From Agromyces sp. (GTDB lineage: Bacteria > Actinomycetota > Actinomycetes > Actinomycetales > Microbacteriaceae): DNA of 38,214 bases. The stretch spans positions 1 to 38,214 of the forward strand of contig JAPSJT010000005.1 of assembly GCA_031178045.1 (NCBI GenBank), given 5' to 3'. Shown here piece after piece: positions 20,219 to 30,630 of the stretch. The first letter of the stretch is position 1. Each line of letters starts with the position of its first letter. The translations under genes and the position numbers were made by a program. A model generated the notes under the pieces. That model ran no database searches, was not told where the DNA came from, and worked only from the letters and a program-made list of their open reading frames with translations.

Positions 20219-21211
20219 ATGGCAGAGACCGCATCGGACGCCGGGGGCGCCGACTGTCGGCCCCGCCCGCCGGTGTCGTTCGAGCTGTTCCCACCGAGGA
20301 CGGATGCCGCAGCGCTCGCCCTGGGCCGCACCATCGACCGCCTCGCCGAGGCGCGGCCGGCCTTCATCTCGGTGACGTTCGGCGCCGGCGGATCGTCGAG
20401 GAACCGCTCGCTCACGGTGCTCCGCTACATGCTGGAGCACACCGACGTCGAGCCGATGGCGCACCTCACGTGCGTGGGCTCCTCGCACGCCGAAGCGAAC
20501 CGGCTCGTCCGTGAGTTCCTCGACGCCGGAGTGACGAGCTTCCTCGCGCTCCGCGGCGATCCGCCCGTCGGCGCCGACCCCGACGCGGGCATCAAAGACC
20601 TCGGCAGCGCCGCTGAGCTCGTGCAGCTCATCCACCGTGTGCAGGAGGAACGGGAACCGTTCGCGCAGGTCGGCATCCCCGGGCTCCCGGGCGTCACCCA
20701 GATCCGCGAGCGGCCGCGACCCGAGCGGGTCGCCGTCGCCGCATTCCCCACCGGGCATCCGCGCTCGCGCAGCATCGCGCAGGACATCGACGCGCTCCTC
20801 GCGAAGGAGATCGCCGGCGCGAACCTGGCGATCACGCAGCTCTTCTGGCGCGCCGACGACTACCTCGGCTTCGTCGAGCGCGCTCGCGCCGCCGGCGTGA
20901 CGATCCCGATCCTGCCGGGCATCATGCCGGTCACCACGCCGGCACGACTTGCCCGGCTCACCGAACTGACGGGCGTGGAACCGCCGGCGCAGCTCGTCAT
21001 CGATCTCGAGATCGAGCCCGACGCCGACGCGCAAGCCGAACTCGGCATCTCGTTCGCAGCGCAGCTCGCGGCCGACGTGCTCGCGGGTGGGGCCCCCGGA
21101 CTCCACCTCTACACCTTCAATCGCCACGAGGCCGTGCTCGACGTCGTCGAGCGCATCGGGCTCGGCATCGACGACCGACTCGCCAATGAGAGGAACACCA
21201 CGAAACGATGA
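20219..21211 (+). CDS. metF: Methylenetetrahydrofolate reductase
   Basis: FAD enzyme reducing 5,10-methylene-THF to 5-methyl-THF, the methyl donor used by the MetE encoded next. The 330-residue TIM barrel shows SFELFPPRT (catalytic Glu region), [71 protein letters not shown] and the C-terminal LHLYTFNR. Start: two ATGs in tandem (20216 and 20219). AGGAG is one base from the first and four from the second, so 20219 is preferred. The stop overlaps the metE start (ATGA). Confidence 0.93.
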
Positions 21212-23553
21212 CCGCACACGCCTTCCCCACCGGGACGATCCTCGGATACCCGCGCATCGGCCGTCGCCGAGAGCTGAAGCGTGCCGTCGAGGCCTTCTGG
21301 GCCGGCACGATCGACGCCGCTGAACTCGAGTCGCGAGCGGCCGAGCTCCGCTCGTCGACGCGTGAGCGACTCGCGTCCCTCGGCCTCGGCCGCACCGACT
21401 CGGCGATCCCCGAGTCCTTCTCGTACTACGACCAGGTGCTCGACGCGGCCGTCGCGGTCGGAGCGATCCCCGAGCGGTTCCAGCGCCTCCAGGATGCCGA
21501 GGGACGCATCGACCTCGCCGGCTACTTCACCATCGCCCGCGGCGAGGGCGACGACGCCCCGCTCGAGATGACGAAGTGGTTCGACTCGAACTACCACTAC
21601 CTGGTTCCCGAGATCGGTCCCGACACCGCATTCGCCCTGCACCCTGAGCGGATCATCGGCGAGTTCGAGGAGGCGAAGTCGGCCGGATACCTCACCCGGC
21701 CGGTCATCGTCGGACCCGTCACCTTCCTCCTGCTTGCGAAGGCCGCCGACGGGGCACCCGAAGGCTTCCGGCCGCTCGATCGCCTCGGCGACCTCGTTCC
21801 CGTCTATCGCGAGCTCCTCGCCGAACTCGCCGCGGCCGGTGCCGAGTGGGTCCAGCTCGACGAGCCCGCGCTCGTCAGCGAGAGCATCGACGAGTCGCGG
21901 GATCGCGTCATCGAAGCGATCGGCACGGCCTACGACGTGCTCGGCGGCGAGACGAACCGGCCGGCGATCTTCGTCGCCGCCCCGTACGGCGCGCTCGACG
22001 ATGCGCTTCCCGCCGTCGCCGCAGCGCCCGTCGAGGCGATCGGGCTCGACCTCGTGCGCGGCAGCGCGCCCGAGCAGCTCGACCCCGCCACGGGTGAGTC
22101 GCTCGCCGCGAAGACGCTCGTCGCCGGTGTCATCGACGGTCACAACATCTGGCGCGGCGACCTCGAGCACGCGTTCGAGCGGGCCGACGCGCTGCGCTCG
22201 CTCTCGGGCTCCGTCTCGGTCTCGACGTCGACGTCGCTCCTCCACGTTCCCCACGACGTCGACGACGAGACGCAGCTCGACGCCCGCCTCGTGAGCTGGC
22301 TCGCGTTCGCCGACCAGAAGGTCGCGCAGGTCGCAGTGCTCGCCCGTGGGCTGGCCGAAGGGCGCGAGGCCATCGAGGCCGAGCTCGACGCGGCATCCGC
22401 GGCGCTCGCCGACCGTGCGGCAGCTCCCGGCGTGCGCGTCCCAGCCGTGCGGGACCGCCTGGCGGCGCTCGCCGACCGCGACTACAGCCGCACGCCGTAC
22501 GACGAGCGCGTCGCGGCGCAGGCGAGCCTCGAGCTCCCCGAGCTGCCGACGACCACGATCGGTTCGTTCCCGCAGACCGGCGACATCCGCCGCGCCCGCG
22601 CCCGGCTGCTGAAGGGCGAGCTCAGCGAGTCCGAGTATCGCCAGCTCATGCGCGAGGAGATCGAGCGCGTCATCCGCCTGCAGGAGGAGCTCGGTCTCGA
22701 CGTGCTCGTCCACGGCGAGCCCGAGCGCAACGACATGGTGCAGTACTTCGCCGAGCTCCTCGACGGCTTCGCCGTCACGCAGCACGGTTGGGTGCAGTCC
22801 TACGGATCGCGGTGCACGCGGCCGTCGATCCTGTGGGGCGATGTCTCTCGGCCCGCGCCGATGACGGTCGAGTGGTCGACCTTCGCGCAGTCGCTCACCG
22901 AGAAGCCCGTGAAGGGCATGCTCACCGGTCCCGTGACGATCCTCGCGTGGTCGTTCGTGCGCGACGACCAGCCCCTCGGCGACACGGCCCGCCAGGTGGC
23001 GCTCGCGTTGCGCGACGAGATCGCCGACCTCGAGCAGGCAGGCATCCGCGTCATCCAGGTCGACGAGCCGGCCCTGCGCGAGCTGCTGCCGTTGAAGCGT
23101 GCCGATCAGCCCGCCTACCTCGACTGGTCGGTCGGCTCGTTCCGCCTCGCGACGGGCGGTGCGGCATCCGCGACGCAGGTGCACACGCACCTCTGCTACT
23201 CGGAGTTCGGTGTCGTGATCGATGCGATCCGCAACCTCGACGCGGACGTCACCTCGATCGAGGCGGCGCGCAGCCGCATGGAGGTCGTCGACGACCTCGC
23301 CTCGAGCGGATTCGACCACGGCATCGGCCCGGGCGTGTACGACATCCACTCGCCGCGGGTGCCGAGCGCCGCCGAGGTGCAGGCGCTGCTCGAGCGCGCG
23401 GTCGCGGAGATCCCCGCCTCCAAGCTGTGGGTGAACCCCGACTGCGGCCTGAAGACGCGGGGATACGACGAGACGGTCGCCTCGCTCGAGCACATCATCG
23501 AGGCGACTCGCGCCGTGCGCGCCGAACGTTCGGAGCCCGCGCTCGCTGAGTGA
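21208..23553 (+). CDS. metE: Cobalamin-independent methionine synthase MetE
   Basis: Zinc enzyme that transfers the methyl group of 5-methyl-THF polyglutamate to homocysteine. At 781 residues it is full length. Two related barrels: the N-terminal one begins [16 protein letters not shown] and holds [15 protein letters not shown]; the C-terminal one begins [19 protein letters not shown] and holds zinc ligands His661 and Cys663 (HLCYSEF) and Cys746 (NPDCGLKTR). It overlaps metF by four bases and is followed by a 17-base-pair hairpin terminator, so metF-metE is a two-gene operon. Confidence 0.97.
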
Positions 23554-23564
23554 CGGCTCTCGAT

Positions 23565-23604
23565 GACGAGCGGATGCCGCGGGCGATCGCGGCATCCGCT
23601 CGTC
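23565..23604 (+). terminator. Strong 17-base-pair terminator hairpin after metE
   Basis: Positions 23565-23581 and 23588-23604 are perfectly complementary, with a 6-base loop GGCGAT, starting 12 bases after the metE stop. The stem contains GGATGCC/GGCATCC. No T-run follows. Confidence 0.8.
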
Positions 23605-23656
23605 GCGTCCCGGCATGCGCACGGGATGCGTGGAGTGCATGCTCAGGTGCACGACG

Positions 23657-23662
23657 TACGGT
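23657..23662 (+). promoter_or_regulatory. -10 box TACGGT for the leaderless hydrolase gene
   Basis: TACGGT is followed by 7 bases and ATG 23670. It selects this start over codons further upstream in the same frame. Confidence 0.45.
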
Positions 23663-23669
23663 CGTCGCC

Positions 23670-24407
23670 ATGCGTCTCGCGGTGCACGAAACGGGTTCCG
23701 GCCCGAAGACGGCGATCCTGATCCACGGGATCATGTCGGATTCGCGCGCGTGGCACCGCGTCGGCCACGAGCTCGAGGCGCACGACTTCCGGGTGCTGGC
23801 CGTCGACCTCGCCGGGCACGGTCGCAGCCCGAGGGCGCGTCGCTACTCGCCGGCCGCCTGGGCGGACGACGTCGTCGAAACGCTGGGTCCGTTCCTCGGC
23901 GGGCCGCCCGATGTCGTCATGGGGCACTCCCTGGGGGGACTCGTGGCGAGCATGGTCGCCGATCGGCTCGCGCCCAGGGCGGCGATCTACATCGATCCCG
24001 CCTTCGCATTCCCGTCGGGAGTGCGCGGGTGGGCCTTCAGGGCCTTCTTCGCCATCGCTCCTCGTCCCAGGCGATCGGCGCTCGTGCGCATGAATCCGAA
24101 GTGGAAGCCGGTCGACGTCGAGATCGAGCTCGCGACACTTCGCGACTGGGACAAGCGCACGATCCTCGGGTTCACCGACACCGCCGCGCTCGTGCCGCCG
24201 GCGCGTCTCGTCGCCCCGAGTCTCGTCGTGCTCGCGGAGAAGAGCCTCCTCATCACGGAGCGCGTCGCCACGCAACTGCGCAGGCAGGGAATGACGGTGG
24301 CCACCGTGGCGGGCACCGGCCATACCGTATTCCGGGACGACCACTCGGGGTTCATGGAGACCATCGTGCGCTGGCTGCGGGCGGTGCCCGTGCCCGCGAT
24401 CGCGTGA
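23670..24407 (+). CDS. Alpha/beta-fold hydrolase
   Basis: A 245-residue soluble hydrolase of the alpha/beta fold. Oxyanion region ILIHGIMSDSRAWHRVG (17-33), DLAGHGRSPR (46-55), nucleophile Ser87 in GHSLGG, and catalytic His218 in GTGHTVFRDD are clear. The acid is probably Glu190 (VVLAEKS) or a nearby residue; most relatives have Asp there. The substrate is unknown: esterase, lipase or haloperoxidase-like are all possible. Its last 16 codons and stop recur, diverged, 734 bases downstream beyond the DHFR-like gene. Confidence 0.88.
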   Translation: MRLAVHETGSGPKTAILIHGIMSDSRAWHRVGHELEAHDFRVLAVDLAGHGRSPRARRYSPAAWADDVVETLGPFLGGPPDVVMGHSLGGLVASMVADRLAPRAAIYIDPAFAFPSGVRGWAFRAFFAIAPRPRRSALVRMNPKWKPVDVEIELATLRDWDKRTILGFTDTAALVPPARLVAPSLVVLAEKSLLITERVATQLRRQGMTVATVAGTGHTVFRDDHSGFMETIVRWLRAVPVPAIA

Positions 24408-24410
24408 CTC
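24360..24410 (+). repeat. Direct repeat, copy 1 (3' end of hydrolase gene)
   Basis: 51 bases matching 25094-25144 at a constant offset of 734, with 8 mismatches and no gaps; the last 30 bases have only two. This copy encodes TIVRWLRAVPVPAIA and the stop codon. Confidence 0.85.
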
Positions 24411-24490
24411 GGAGCCGACTGAGGTGTATCGGTTGTCCGCGGCGGAGGGCAGACTCTCATCTGAGGTATCCCAGAGCAGAGGAGCGCCCC

Positions 24491-25072
24491 GTGGGCAGAG
24501 TGGTCATGTACAGCTCGGTGTCGGTCGACGGCTTCATCGCGGACGAGAACGACCAGCCCGGGCCCCTGTTCGACTGGTTGCTCAGCGGTGACGTGCCGTT
24601 GGACGAGAGCGGCGTGCTGAAGGTGTCGCAGGCGTCGTACGACTACGTCCGGCCGTACTGGGACCGGATCGGGGTGACGATCGCCGGCCGCCACGTCTTC
24701 GACATGACGGACGGCTGGGACGGGACGCCACCGAGCGGGGTCGAGCACGTGGTCGTCGTGACGCACCGGCCGCAACCCGAGGGCTGGGATCCCGAGGCGC
24801 CGTTCCACTTCCTCGACGGGGTCGAGGCGGCGATGGCCAAGGCGCAGGAGCTCGCGGGTGACCGAATCATCGAGGTCGCCGCCGGCGACGTCGGCGGCCA
24901 GGTGCTCGCCGCGGGACTGGTCGACGAGGTGCGCATGGACGTCGTACCCGTCGTGTTCGGGTCCGGCAAGCGCTACTTCGGGTCGGTCCACGGGCAGCAC
25001 CTGTTGGAGGACCCCGACGTGGTGATCCAGGGCGACCGGGTGCTTCACCTGCGCTATCCGGTGCGCCGCTGA
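24491..25072 (+). CDS. Dihydrofolate reductase/RibD C-terminal-domain family protein
   Basis: A 193-residue protein of the RibD_C/DHFR-like family (YyaP/YwjB type). Seen: MYSSVSVDGFIADENDQPGPLFDWL at the N-terminus, GRHVFDMTDGWDG, VVVVTHRPQPEGW, IIEVAAGDVGGQVLAAGLVDEVRMDVVPVVFGSGKRYFG, all typical. Members are NADPH-dependent reductases in form, but most have no known substrate, and true folate reduction is not implied. Start: GTG 24491 with GAGGAG 6 bases upstream. The gene sits between two copies of a 51-base repeat, which suggests that it was inserted after the hydrolase gene. Confidence 0.88.
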   Translation: MGRVVMYSSVSVDGFIADENDQPGPLFDWLLSGDVPLDESGVLKVSQASYDYVRPYWDRIGVTIAGRHVFDMTDGWDGTPPSGVEHVVVVTHRPQPEGWDPEAPFHFLDGVEAAMAKAQELAGDRIIEVAAGDVGGQVLAAGLVDEVRMDVVPVVFGSGKRYFGSVHGQHLLEDPDVVIQGDRVLHLRYPVRR

Positions 25073-25093
25073 CCGAGCACGACCGAAGCCGGA

Positions 25094-25144
25094 ACGATCG
25101 TGCATCGGCCGAGGGCGGTGCCCGTGGCGGCGATCGCGTGACTC
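25094..25144 (+). repeat. Direct repeat, copy 2 (remnant of hydrolase 3' end)
   Basis: The diverged second copy still reads TIVHRPRAVPVAAIA and a TGA in the same frame, but has no gene attached upstream. It ends inside the stop codon region of the convergent lexA gene (TGA complement at 25143-25145). Confidence 0.8.
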
Positions 25145-25832
25145 AGACGGCGCGCAGCACGGCGACGACCTTGCCGAGCACTTCGGCCTGATCGCCGACG
25201 ATGGGCTCGAACGCGCTGTTGCGCGGCAGGAGCCAGGTGTGCCCGTCGCGCTGGCGGAAGACCTTCACGGTCGCCTCGCCGTCGAGCATCGCCGCGACGA
25301 TCTCGCCGTTCTCGGCGGTGCGCTGCGAGCGCACGACGACCCAGTCGCCGTCGCAGATCGCCGCGTCGATCATCGAATCGCCGACGACCTTCAGGATGAA
25401 GAGCTCGCCCTTGCCCACGAGCTGGCGGGGGAGTGGGAAGACCTCGTCGATCTGCTGCTCGGCCGTGATCGGGATGCCCGCCGCGATGCGACCCACGAGG
25501 GGCACCATCGCCGCGTCGCCGACCGGGGTGGGCTCGCCCGCCGACGACGGTCGCTCACCGGTACCGGGGAGTTCGATGAGCACCTCGAGCGCCCGTGGCC
25601 GATTCGGGTCGCGGCGAAGGTAGCCCGCGAGCTCGAGCTGGTTGAGCTGATGGGTCACGCTCGACAGCGACGACAGGCCGACGGCGTCGCCGATCTCGCG
25701 CATGCTCGGCGGGTACCCGCGAGCTGCGACGGAGTGCTGGATGACCTCGAGGATCGCGATCTGCTTCGCGCTGAGGCTCTTCCGGCGGCGCGCCCGGCCG
25801 GTATCGCGCAGGTCGTCGATGTCGGTGCTCAC
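25143..25832 (-). CDS. lexA: SOS repressor LexA
   Basis: Represses the SOS regulon until RecA filaments stimulate its self-cleavage. The 229-residue protein has the winged helix-turn-helix (about 20-85, with [28 protein letters not shown]), cleavage site Ala118-Gly119 (RIAAGIPI), catalytic Ser153 (VVGDSM) and Lys190 (ATVKVFR). Start: GTG 25832 with AAGGAG 8 bases upstream; the frame stays open far upstream but has no similarity there. The promoter carries a LexA box, so it is self-regulated. It is divergent from a LysM gene and convergent with the hydrolase/DHFR pair. Confidence 0.97.
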
Positions 25833-30549: not shown

Positions 30550-30630
30550 AGCACCGCGCGGATCGCGGGAGCCATTGCCGCACGCTCCGGACTGGAGCAG
30601 AATGAGCCTCTCGCGTGAGGGGAGCGCTTC

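Follow-up and report, generated by a model that had tools for sequence, protein, structure and literature searches.

The entry of single genes into chromosomes without any mobile-element parts is rarely visible at the level of individual bases. DNA repair and lateral transfer are reportedly the subject of work by Popa and colleagues from 2011. In the passages cited here, much small-scale genome diversity is ascribed to illegitimate recombination (PMC2884548), and small variable segments are described as mostly under 500 bp, with insertions coupled to deletions (PMC3240628). The former source also states, in the same excerpted part, that prokaryotes other than a few species have almost no dedicated end joining, which counts against end joining; the distribution of bacterial end joining is the topic of a further article (PMC7719229, cited from its accessible portion). 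Homology-facilitated integration, as portrayed in the relevant section of PMC3240628, usually involves microhomology of 3-10 bp and the deletion of about 1 kb, and single-crossover duplications were seen as well. At the level of whole genes, the cited part of PMC11375855 reports that 26.5% of inter-species additive transfers lack any common flanking gene, while the RibD_C entry in PMC5581361 gives 27 transfers in 43 genomes and an HGT index of 0.628, within a top-20 list apparently ranked by that index.

The locus considered here lies in a window (the whole stretch of DNA analysed, 38,214 nucleotides of the genome of an Agromyces, a soil bacterium) in which a gene for a DHFR-like protein stands between an alpha/beta hydrolase gene and lexA, flanked by two copies of the hydrolase 3' end (Table 1). 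We propose that a fragment of about 0.7 kb was probably captured by illegitimate joining at the hydrolase–lexA interval, with duplication of the target end. For one gene, in one genus of Ku-bearing bacteria, three clean empty sites and two flanking duplications can now be set side by side, and this set of insertions allows end joining to be weighed against homology-assisted integration. No publication on this locus was found by title or abstract start, which is weak evidence, as most subscription journals lie outside the coverage of the search.

Table 1. Features of the metE–lexA interval, in window coordinates.
Feature	Position	Strand	Basis or remark
metE	21208..23553	+	Pfam; left neighbour in most relatives by synteny
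alpha/beta hydrolase gene, 245 aa, intact	23670..24407	+	Pfam PF12697; last 15 codons and stop form the left copy
left repeat copy (hydrolase 3' end and 6 bases)	24360..24413	+	repeat comparison
inserted block between the copies, 680 bp	24414..25093	+	homology to DHFR-like loci elsewhere
leader and ribosome-binding region of the DHFR-like gene, conserved, its own	about 24452-24490	+	homology
DHFR-like gene, RibD_C PF01872, 193 aa, GTG start	24491..25072	+	Pfam
right repeat copy, orphan hydrolase tail unattached to any gene	25094..25147	+	overlaps the lexA stop
lexA, 229 aa, convergent	25143..25832	-	TIGR00498

Between the two copies the DHFR-like gene stands alone, with no transposase. Homology of the insert to other DHFR-like loci sets in at 24452-24481 and stops at 25068-25098, and taken together the window's copy resembles the others from about 24452 to 25076. 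Since 24414-24451 and 25077-25093 are of uncertain origin, the ends of the insert can be placed only to within some tens of bases. A scan of 23500-25300 for promoter and terminator consensus sequences found nothing. Just past the metE stop, at 23565-23604, a 17-bp inverted repeat without mismatches encloses a 6-base loop; the terminator scan, in which a run of T is required, did not list it. Among the relatives, metE was not seen at the lexA locus of G055, nor at that of G040, where the contig ends.

In an ungapped same-strand comparison of the window, the two copies are identical at 45 of 54 positions at an offset of 734, ranking first among all such pairs at offsets of at least 60 (next offset, 38/54), and exact runs within the repeat do not exceed 15 bases. 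The initial annotation had reported the same offset with 43 of 51 bases matching (24360-24410 versus 25094-25144), and both figures are exact. The secure core of the repeat is 24379-24413 versus 25113-25147 (32/35 identical); 13 of the first 19 bases agree, nine of these within the first 10, and this leading identity could be due in part to chance or microhomology. To the left of 25094 there is no identity at the same offset (4 of 20 bases). The left copy consists of 15 sense codons and the stop (24360-24407) followed by six bases beyond the gene (24408-24413), so that its earlier assignment to the hydrolase 3' end stands and the count of 16 codons and a stop does not. The right copy reads TIVHRPRAVPVAAIA-stop: frame and stop are kept, as had been claimed for this orphan, WLR has become RPR, and the end reaches into the lexA stop. 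Its own stop (25139-25141) sits one base ahead of the complement of the lexA stop (25143-25145), whose TCA corresponds to TCG in the left copy; the copy was previously said to abut the lexA stop, and as a whole, running to 25147, it overlaps that stop.

The genome of origin is a draft of 325 contigs, 90% complete. A search of it with the left copy returned two places (E 6e-28 and 6e-10) ahead of a next match at E = 0.004, and no third copy was present in the 325 contigs. A dispersed repeat, considered as a further candidate, was ruled out by this search, with its two places only; matches in congeners are weak (E 5e-6 or worse).

The genus sample comprised 60 genomes, the one under study included, with the hydrolase present in 34 and lexA in 58. 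The lexA locus was read in 57 congeners, G030 and G051 having no lexA match at E 1e-60. In 33 of these 57 the hydrolase occurs at the lexA locus, and in all 33 it adjoins lexA, at a stop-to-stop distance of -4 to 106 bp (median 30) as against 735 bp in the window. The hydrolase is missing from the other 24 loci, and its absence in G040 may simply reflect a contig end about 216 bp past lexA. A DHFR-like gene between hydrolase and lexA was seen at none of the 57 congener loci (only about 216 bp being readable in G040). From the invariable adjacency of the two genes and the 735-bp gap in the window it follows that the DHFR-like gene entered an old hydrolase–lexA junction in this lineage, and among the genomes compared only the window's lineage has this insertion. 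This outcome supports the first of two histories put forward in the initial annotation, namely entry of the gene into an ancestral hydrolase–lexA junction with a direct repeat left behind. The comparison of the metE–lexA interval that had been suggested there showed a single hydrolase end adjoining lexA in the relatives without the gene at this place (33/33), and neither of the contrary patterns named in advance was found, that is, the gene with both copies in all relatives or the repeat at many unrelated loci.

Of the two further checks proposed at the same time, codon use and phylogeny, the former was not diagnostic and the latter was informative, as the gene tree conflicts with the core tree. 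The DHFR-like gene has a GC3 of 0.938, a little above the 0.880-0.926 of the five further genes in the window for which it was computed, and foreign codon use was accordingly discarded as a marker of the insertion. In the tree comparison (39 taxa), the DHFR-like and core trees reject each other by the AU test (p = 8.8e-5 and 1e-112), the core tree on the DHFR data giving p = 8.8e-5 with a delta lnL of 759. The core tree was built from seven core proteins of the metE–lexA–his region, and thus represents one region; G051, which has no lexA match, was left out of the trees. The conflict means that the histories differ and says nothing on the number of transfers.

By family membership, the DHFR-like protein is a putative reductase: residues 111-169 match PF01872 with 32.9 bits against a curated cut-off of 24.1, no NCBIfam match was obtained, and distant relatives of known structure are PDB 3kgy and 2xw7. 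The gene occurs in 42 of the 60 genus genomes at E 1e-20 or better, the studied genome included. Counts of context and repeats refer to 40 copies, the window's and 39 from congeners, the latter taken together with 15 to 20 kb of surrounding sequence; the counts exclude G010, whose copy is 62% identical, and G045, where the gene is in pieces at contig ends. In G045, contigs C5, C17 and C1 end in pieces of the gene, with an internal overlap duplication in two cases; this points to several copies, to copies in tandem or to a break in the assembly. In G147, inspection by eye showed that a few tens of bases are tandemly duplicated in the leader of the DHFR-like gene.

All 39 congener copies examined sit elsewhere than in the hydrolase–lexA interval; the hydrolase, by contrast, occupies the same place in 33 of 33. 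In G023 the DHFR-like gene lies beyond lexA, about 5 kb off, in the same conserved region (compare window 30559-30594) and in the opposite orientation. When neighbours were compared as proteins over 3.5 kb per side, the 40 copies fell into 37 groups with common two-sided neighbours. These are not 37 independent events, since five copies (G007, G024, G027, G053 and G054) have a common upstream side, partly a wider region. Additionally, about 900 bp of upstream sequence is common to 14 copies, and in G048, the one tested of the 14, this segment is a gene for an AraC-type regulator (PF00165); for these two reasons, the AraC-type regulator and the DHFR-like gene probably travel together in some members of the genus. 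Whether such wandering is unique to the DHFR-like gene is doubtful, because a gene of about 450 bp beside the DHFR-like copy in G052 has matches at unlike coordinates in 37 of the 60 genomes. This short gene, perhaps another wandering small gene, again lies near the DHFR-like gene in G046 (under 200 bp) and in G019 (about 1.4 kb).

Beyond the genus, 25 of 299 genomes of the family Microbacteriaceae match at E 1e-60, of which 20 belong to 16 other genera, the top other-genus match showing 91% amino-acid identity. With LexA as a yardstick, applied to 16 of the 20 other-genus genomes, identity of the DHFR-like protein is higher in 10, equal in one and lower in five (for example, 91 versus 84% in G147 and 76 versus 84% in G062); the signal of cross-genus transfer is mixed by this measure, because LexA is the more conserved of the two in 5/16. 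Among 72,556 plasmid records there are 28 matches, including three at 84-86% from other orders: pRHL1 of Rhodococcus jostii RHA1, a Nonomuraea record of 11.85 Mb labelled as a plasmid, and a plasmid of Streptomyces chartreusis (64% of the gene). The Nonomuraea copy aligns with the entire AraC–reductase pair over 1515 bp at 79%. No match was found in 50,697 phage records, and carriage by phage was discarded as a candidate. Lateral spread of the DHFR-like gene is thus shown.

Three other insertions could be read against clean empty sites: G003 versus G002, with 741 bp in, 12 bp replaced and flanks about 96% identical; G002 versus G049, with 708 bp in, 22 bp replaced and flanks at 92-94%; and G023 versus G028, with 889 bp in and 11 bp replaced, less exact as its flanks are about 87% identical. 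The inserted fragments have no fixed ends, extending -113/+46, -43/+74 and -220/+87 relative to the gene, and the 113 bp upstream of the gene in the G003 fragment include the 3' end of the AraC-type partner gene, cut off from the rest of it. In 100-bp bins beside the joints, identity stays within the range of bins farther away, so that none of the three sites bears a sign of a homologous donor anchor. All three show small losses and no duplications, which counts against the reading proposed here for the window. Where G002 has its DHFR-like gene, G003 (C1:494500-514000) has a different insertion of about 14 kb, and that G002/G003 site may be an insertion hotspot.

When 400 bp per side were compared at the 40 DHFR-like loci, just two scores were conspicuous, 31.5 for the window and 113.5 for G035, and no adjoining flanking direct repeat was detected in the remaining 38. 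When the span was extended to 7 kb, eight further loci gave direct matches, which are weaker and all lie over 500 bp away on either side. A common scar at all DHFR-like sites was ruled out, adjoining repeats being confined to 2/40 loci. In G035 the gene is enclosed by a direct repeat of 151 bp, 90.7% identical: the start of the next gene region, over 151 bp, is present again before the DHFR-like gene. Seven other genomes have versions without the insertion, to which this upstream copy is 79-87% identical and the downstream gene region 84-88% identical over a longer stretch. As controls, 2000 intervals of 582 bp drawn at random from these loci gave 6 at 31.5 or above, some of the 6 overlapping, with a maximum of 53, and 1560 cross-locus comparisons, some between related loci, gave one at 31.5 or above, with a score of 99. 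The G035 score thus exceeds every random interval and every cross comparison. Against the random rate, two of 40 loci corresponds to p = 0.007, and one of 39 without the discovery locus to p = 0.11; as the latter is not significant, duplication of the flanks may belong to these insertions but is not proven to do so.

Several other origins of the window's repeat have to be weighed. A donor already carrying a hydrolase tail beside the DHFR-like gene could have entered by a single (Campbell-type) crossover or by homology-facilitated integration, which would leave one copy from the donor and one from the recipient. A difference of 17%, as found here between the copies, is what the tails of two species might show, and duplications of that origin were seen in E. 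coli tests of homology-facilitated recombination, according to the section of PMC3240628 cited above. We nevertheless regard this origin as unlikely: linkage of the hydrolase with the gene is found at none of the 57 lexA loci; across the 39 congener loci, the hydrolase is present only in the 16-kb region of G023, several kb off and past lexA; no donor-like anchor is present at the three clean sites; and the hydrolase tail is hypervariable among species, so that 91% identity over a 35-bp core would be surprising for the tails of two species. The second history in the initial annotation, with a tandem hydrolase duplication, the DHFR-like gene in between and subsequent loss of most of the second hydrolase, accommodates the frame and stop retained in the right copy, yet it is hardly tenable, since at E 1e-20 a second hydrolase was found at the locus in none of the congeners (the sole other match at that threshold, in G005, is 33% identical and away from the locus), none has the gene between hydrolase and lexA, and just the last 35-54 bp would be left, identity having vanished at the left edge of the right copy.

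The gene behaves as mobile, and the unit of AraC-type gene and DHFR-like gene recurs with similar edges (about -923 to +587) even in Nonomuraea, as would be expected of a passenger of a transposable element or an integron-like cassette with the repeat as its target-site duplication. These seemingly fixed edges, however, fall at gene ends, where detectable homology stops anyway. Furthermore, the fragment ends are unlike at the three clean sites; the length of the duplication is not constant, the window having 54 bp and G035 151 bp, with none adjoining in 38/40; among the 25 of 32 inverted pairs listed for the window region none has arms at both ends of the insert; and the phage records yielded no match. 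Carriage by such an element is consequently very improbable. An assembly artefact or chance similarity could be suspected in a genome of 325 contigs, but an E value of about 6e-10 for the repeat within its genome, together with copies too different (longest common run, 15 bases) to be likely to mislead an assembler, leaves little to recommend either.

Illegitimate joining at the hydrolase–lexA interval fits the observations because the fragments are short, their ends arbitrary, the losses and duplications small, no anchor visible and no element ends present. In the sequence of events that we infer, the DHFR-like (RibD_C) gene with its own leader would have arrived on a fragment of about 0.7 kb without transposase or defined ends; a staggered chromosome break would have opened the short hydrolase–lexA interval, where the fragment would have been captured by illegitimate end joining; and overhang fill-in would have duplicated the target, leaving the hydrolase with the left tail and, on the right, another copy of its final ~35-54 bp, up to the lexA stop, to decay as non-coding DNA. 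Selection for the gene may have followed. Ku (PF02735) is encoded in 58 of the 60 genus genomes, including the one studied, and in one of 14 control genomes, a distribution compatible with end joining in which Ku would take part. A fill-in of 54 bases is long, which counts against the end-joining reading. A broader and decidedly tentative suggestion is that the bare gene, or the AraC-type and RibD_C pair, without a recombinase of its own, disperses across Actinomycetes in short fragments via end joining, the duplications of 35-151 bp being filled-in staggered breaks.

Altogether, the window records an ordinary kind of gene acquisition that is unusually clear and forms part of a wider travelling-gene pattern. 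The horizontally transferred RibD_C genes listed in PMC5581361 belong to the same Pfam family (PF01872) as the window gene; the entry, as far as excerpted, gives no integration sites, whereas here the sites of three other insertions are resolved through comparison with empty sites, and that of the window through its repeat. The present insertions are like the small variable segments described in the cited parts of PMC2884548 and PMC3240628 in being short, in replacing a small segment and in lacking a known mobile element; those segments were described inside single species (E. coli, S. aureus, S. pyogenes), whereas here one gene recurs at many sites across species, with a duplication at two loci. 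Homology-facilitated illegitimate recombination, on the evidence of the cited part of PMC3240628, likewise involves short linear DNA and a non-homologous joint, with duplications in the E. coli test, but it needs a homologous anchor, none of which was detected at the three clean sites, and comes with deletions of about 1 kb in place of the 11-22 bp replaced here. Finally, as in the additive transfers described in the accessible portion of PMC11375855, a gene is added in new surroundings, and here most copies differ in context, with 37 two-sided groups among 40 copies.
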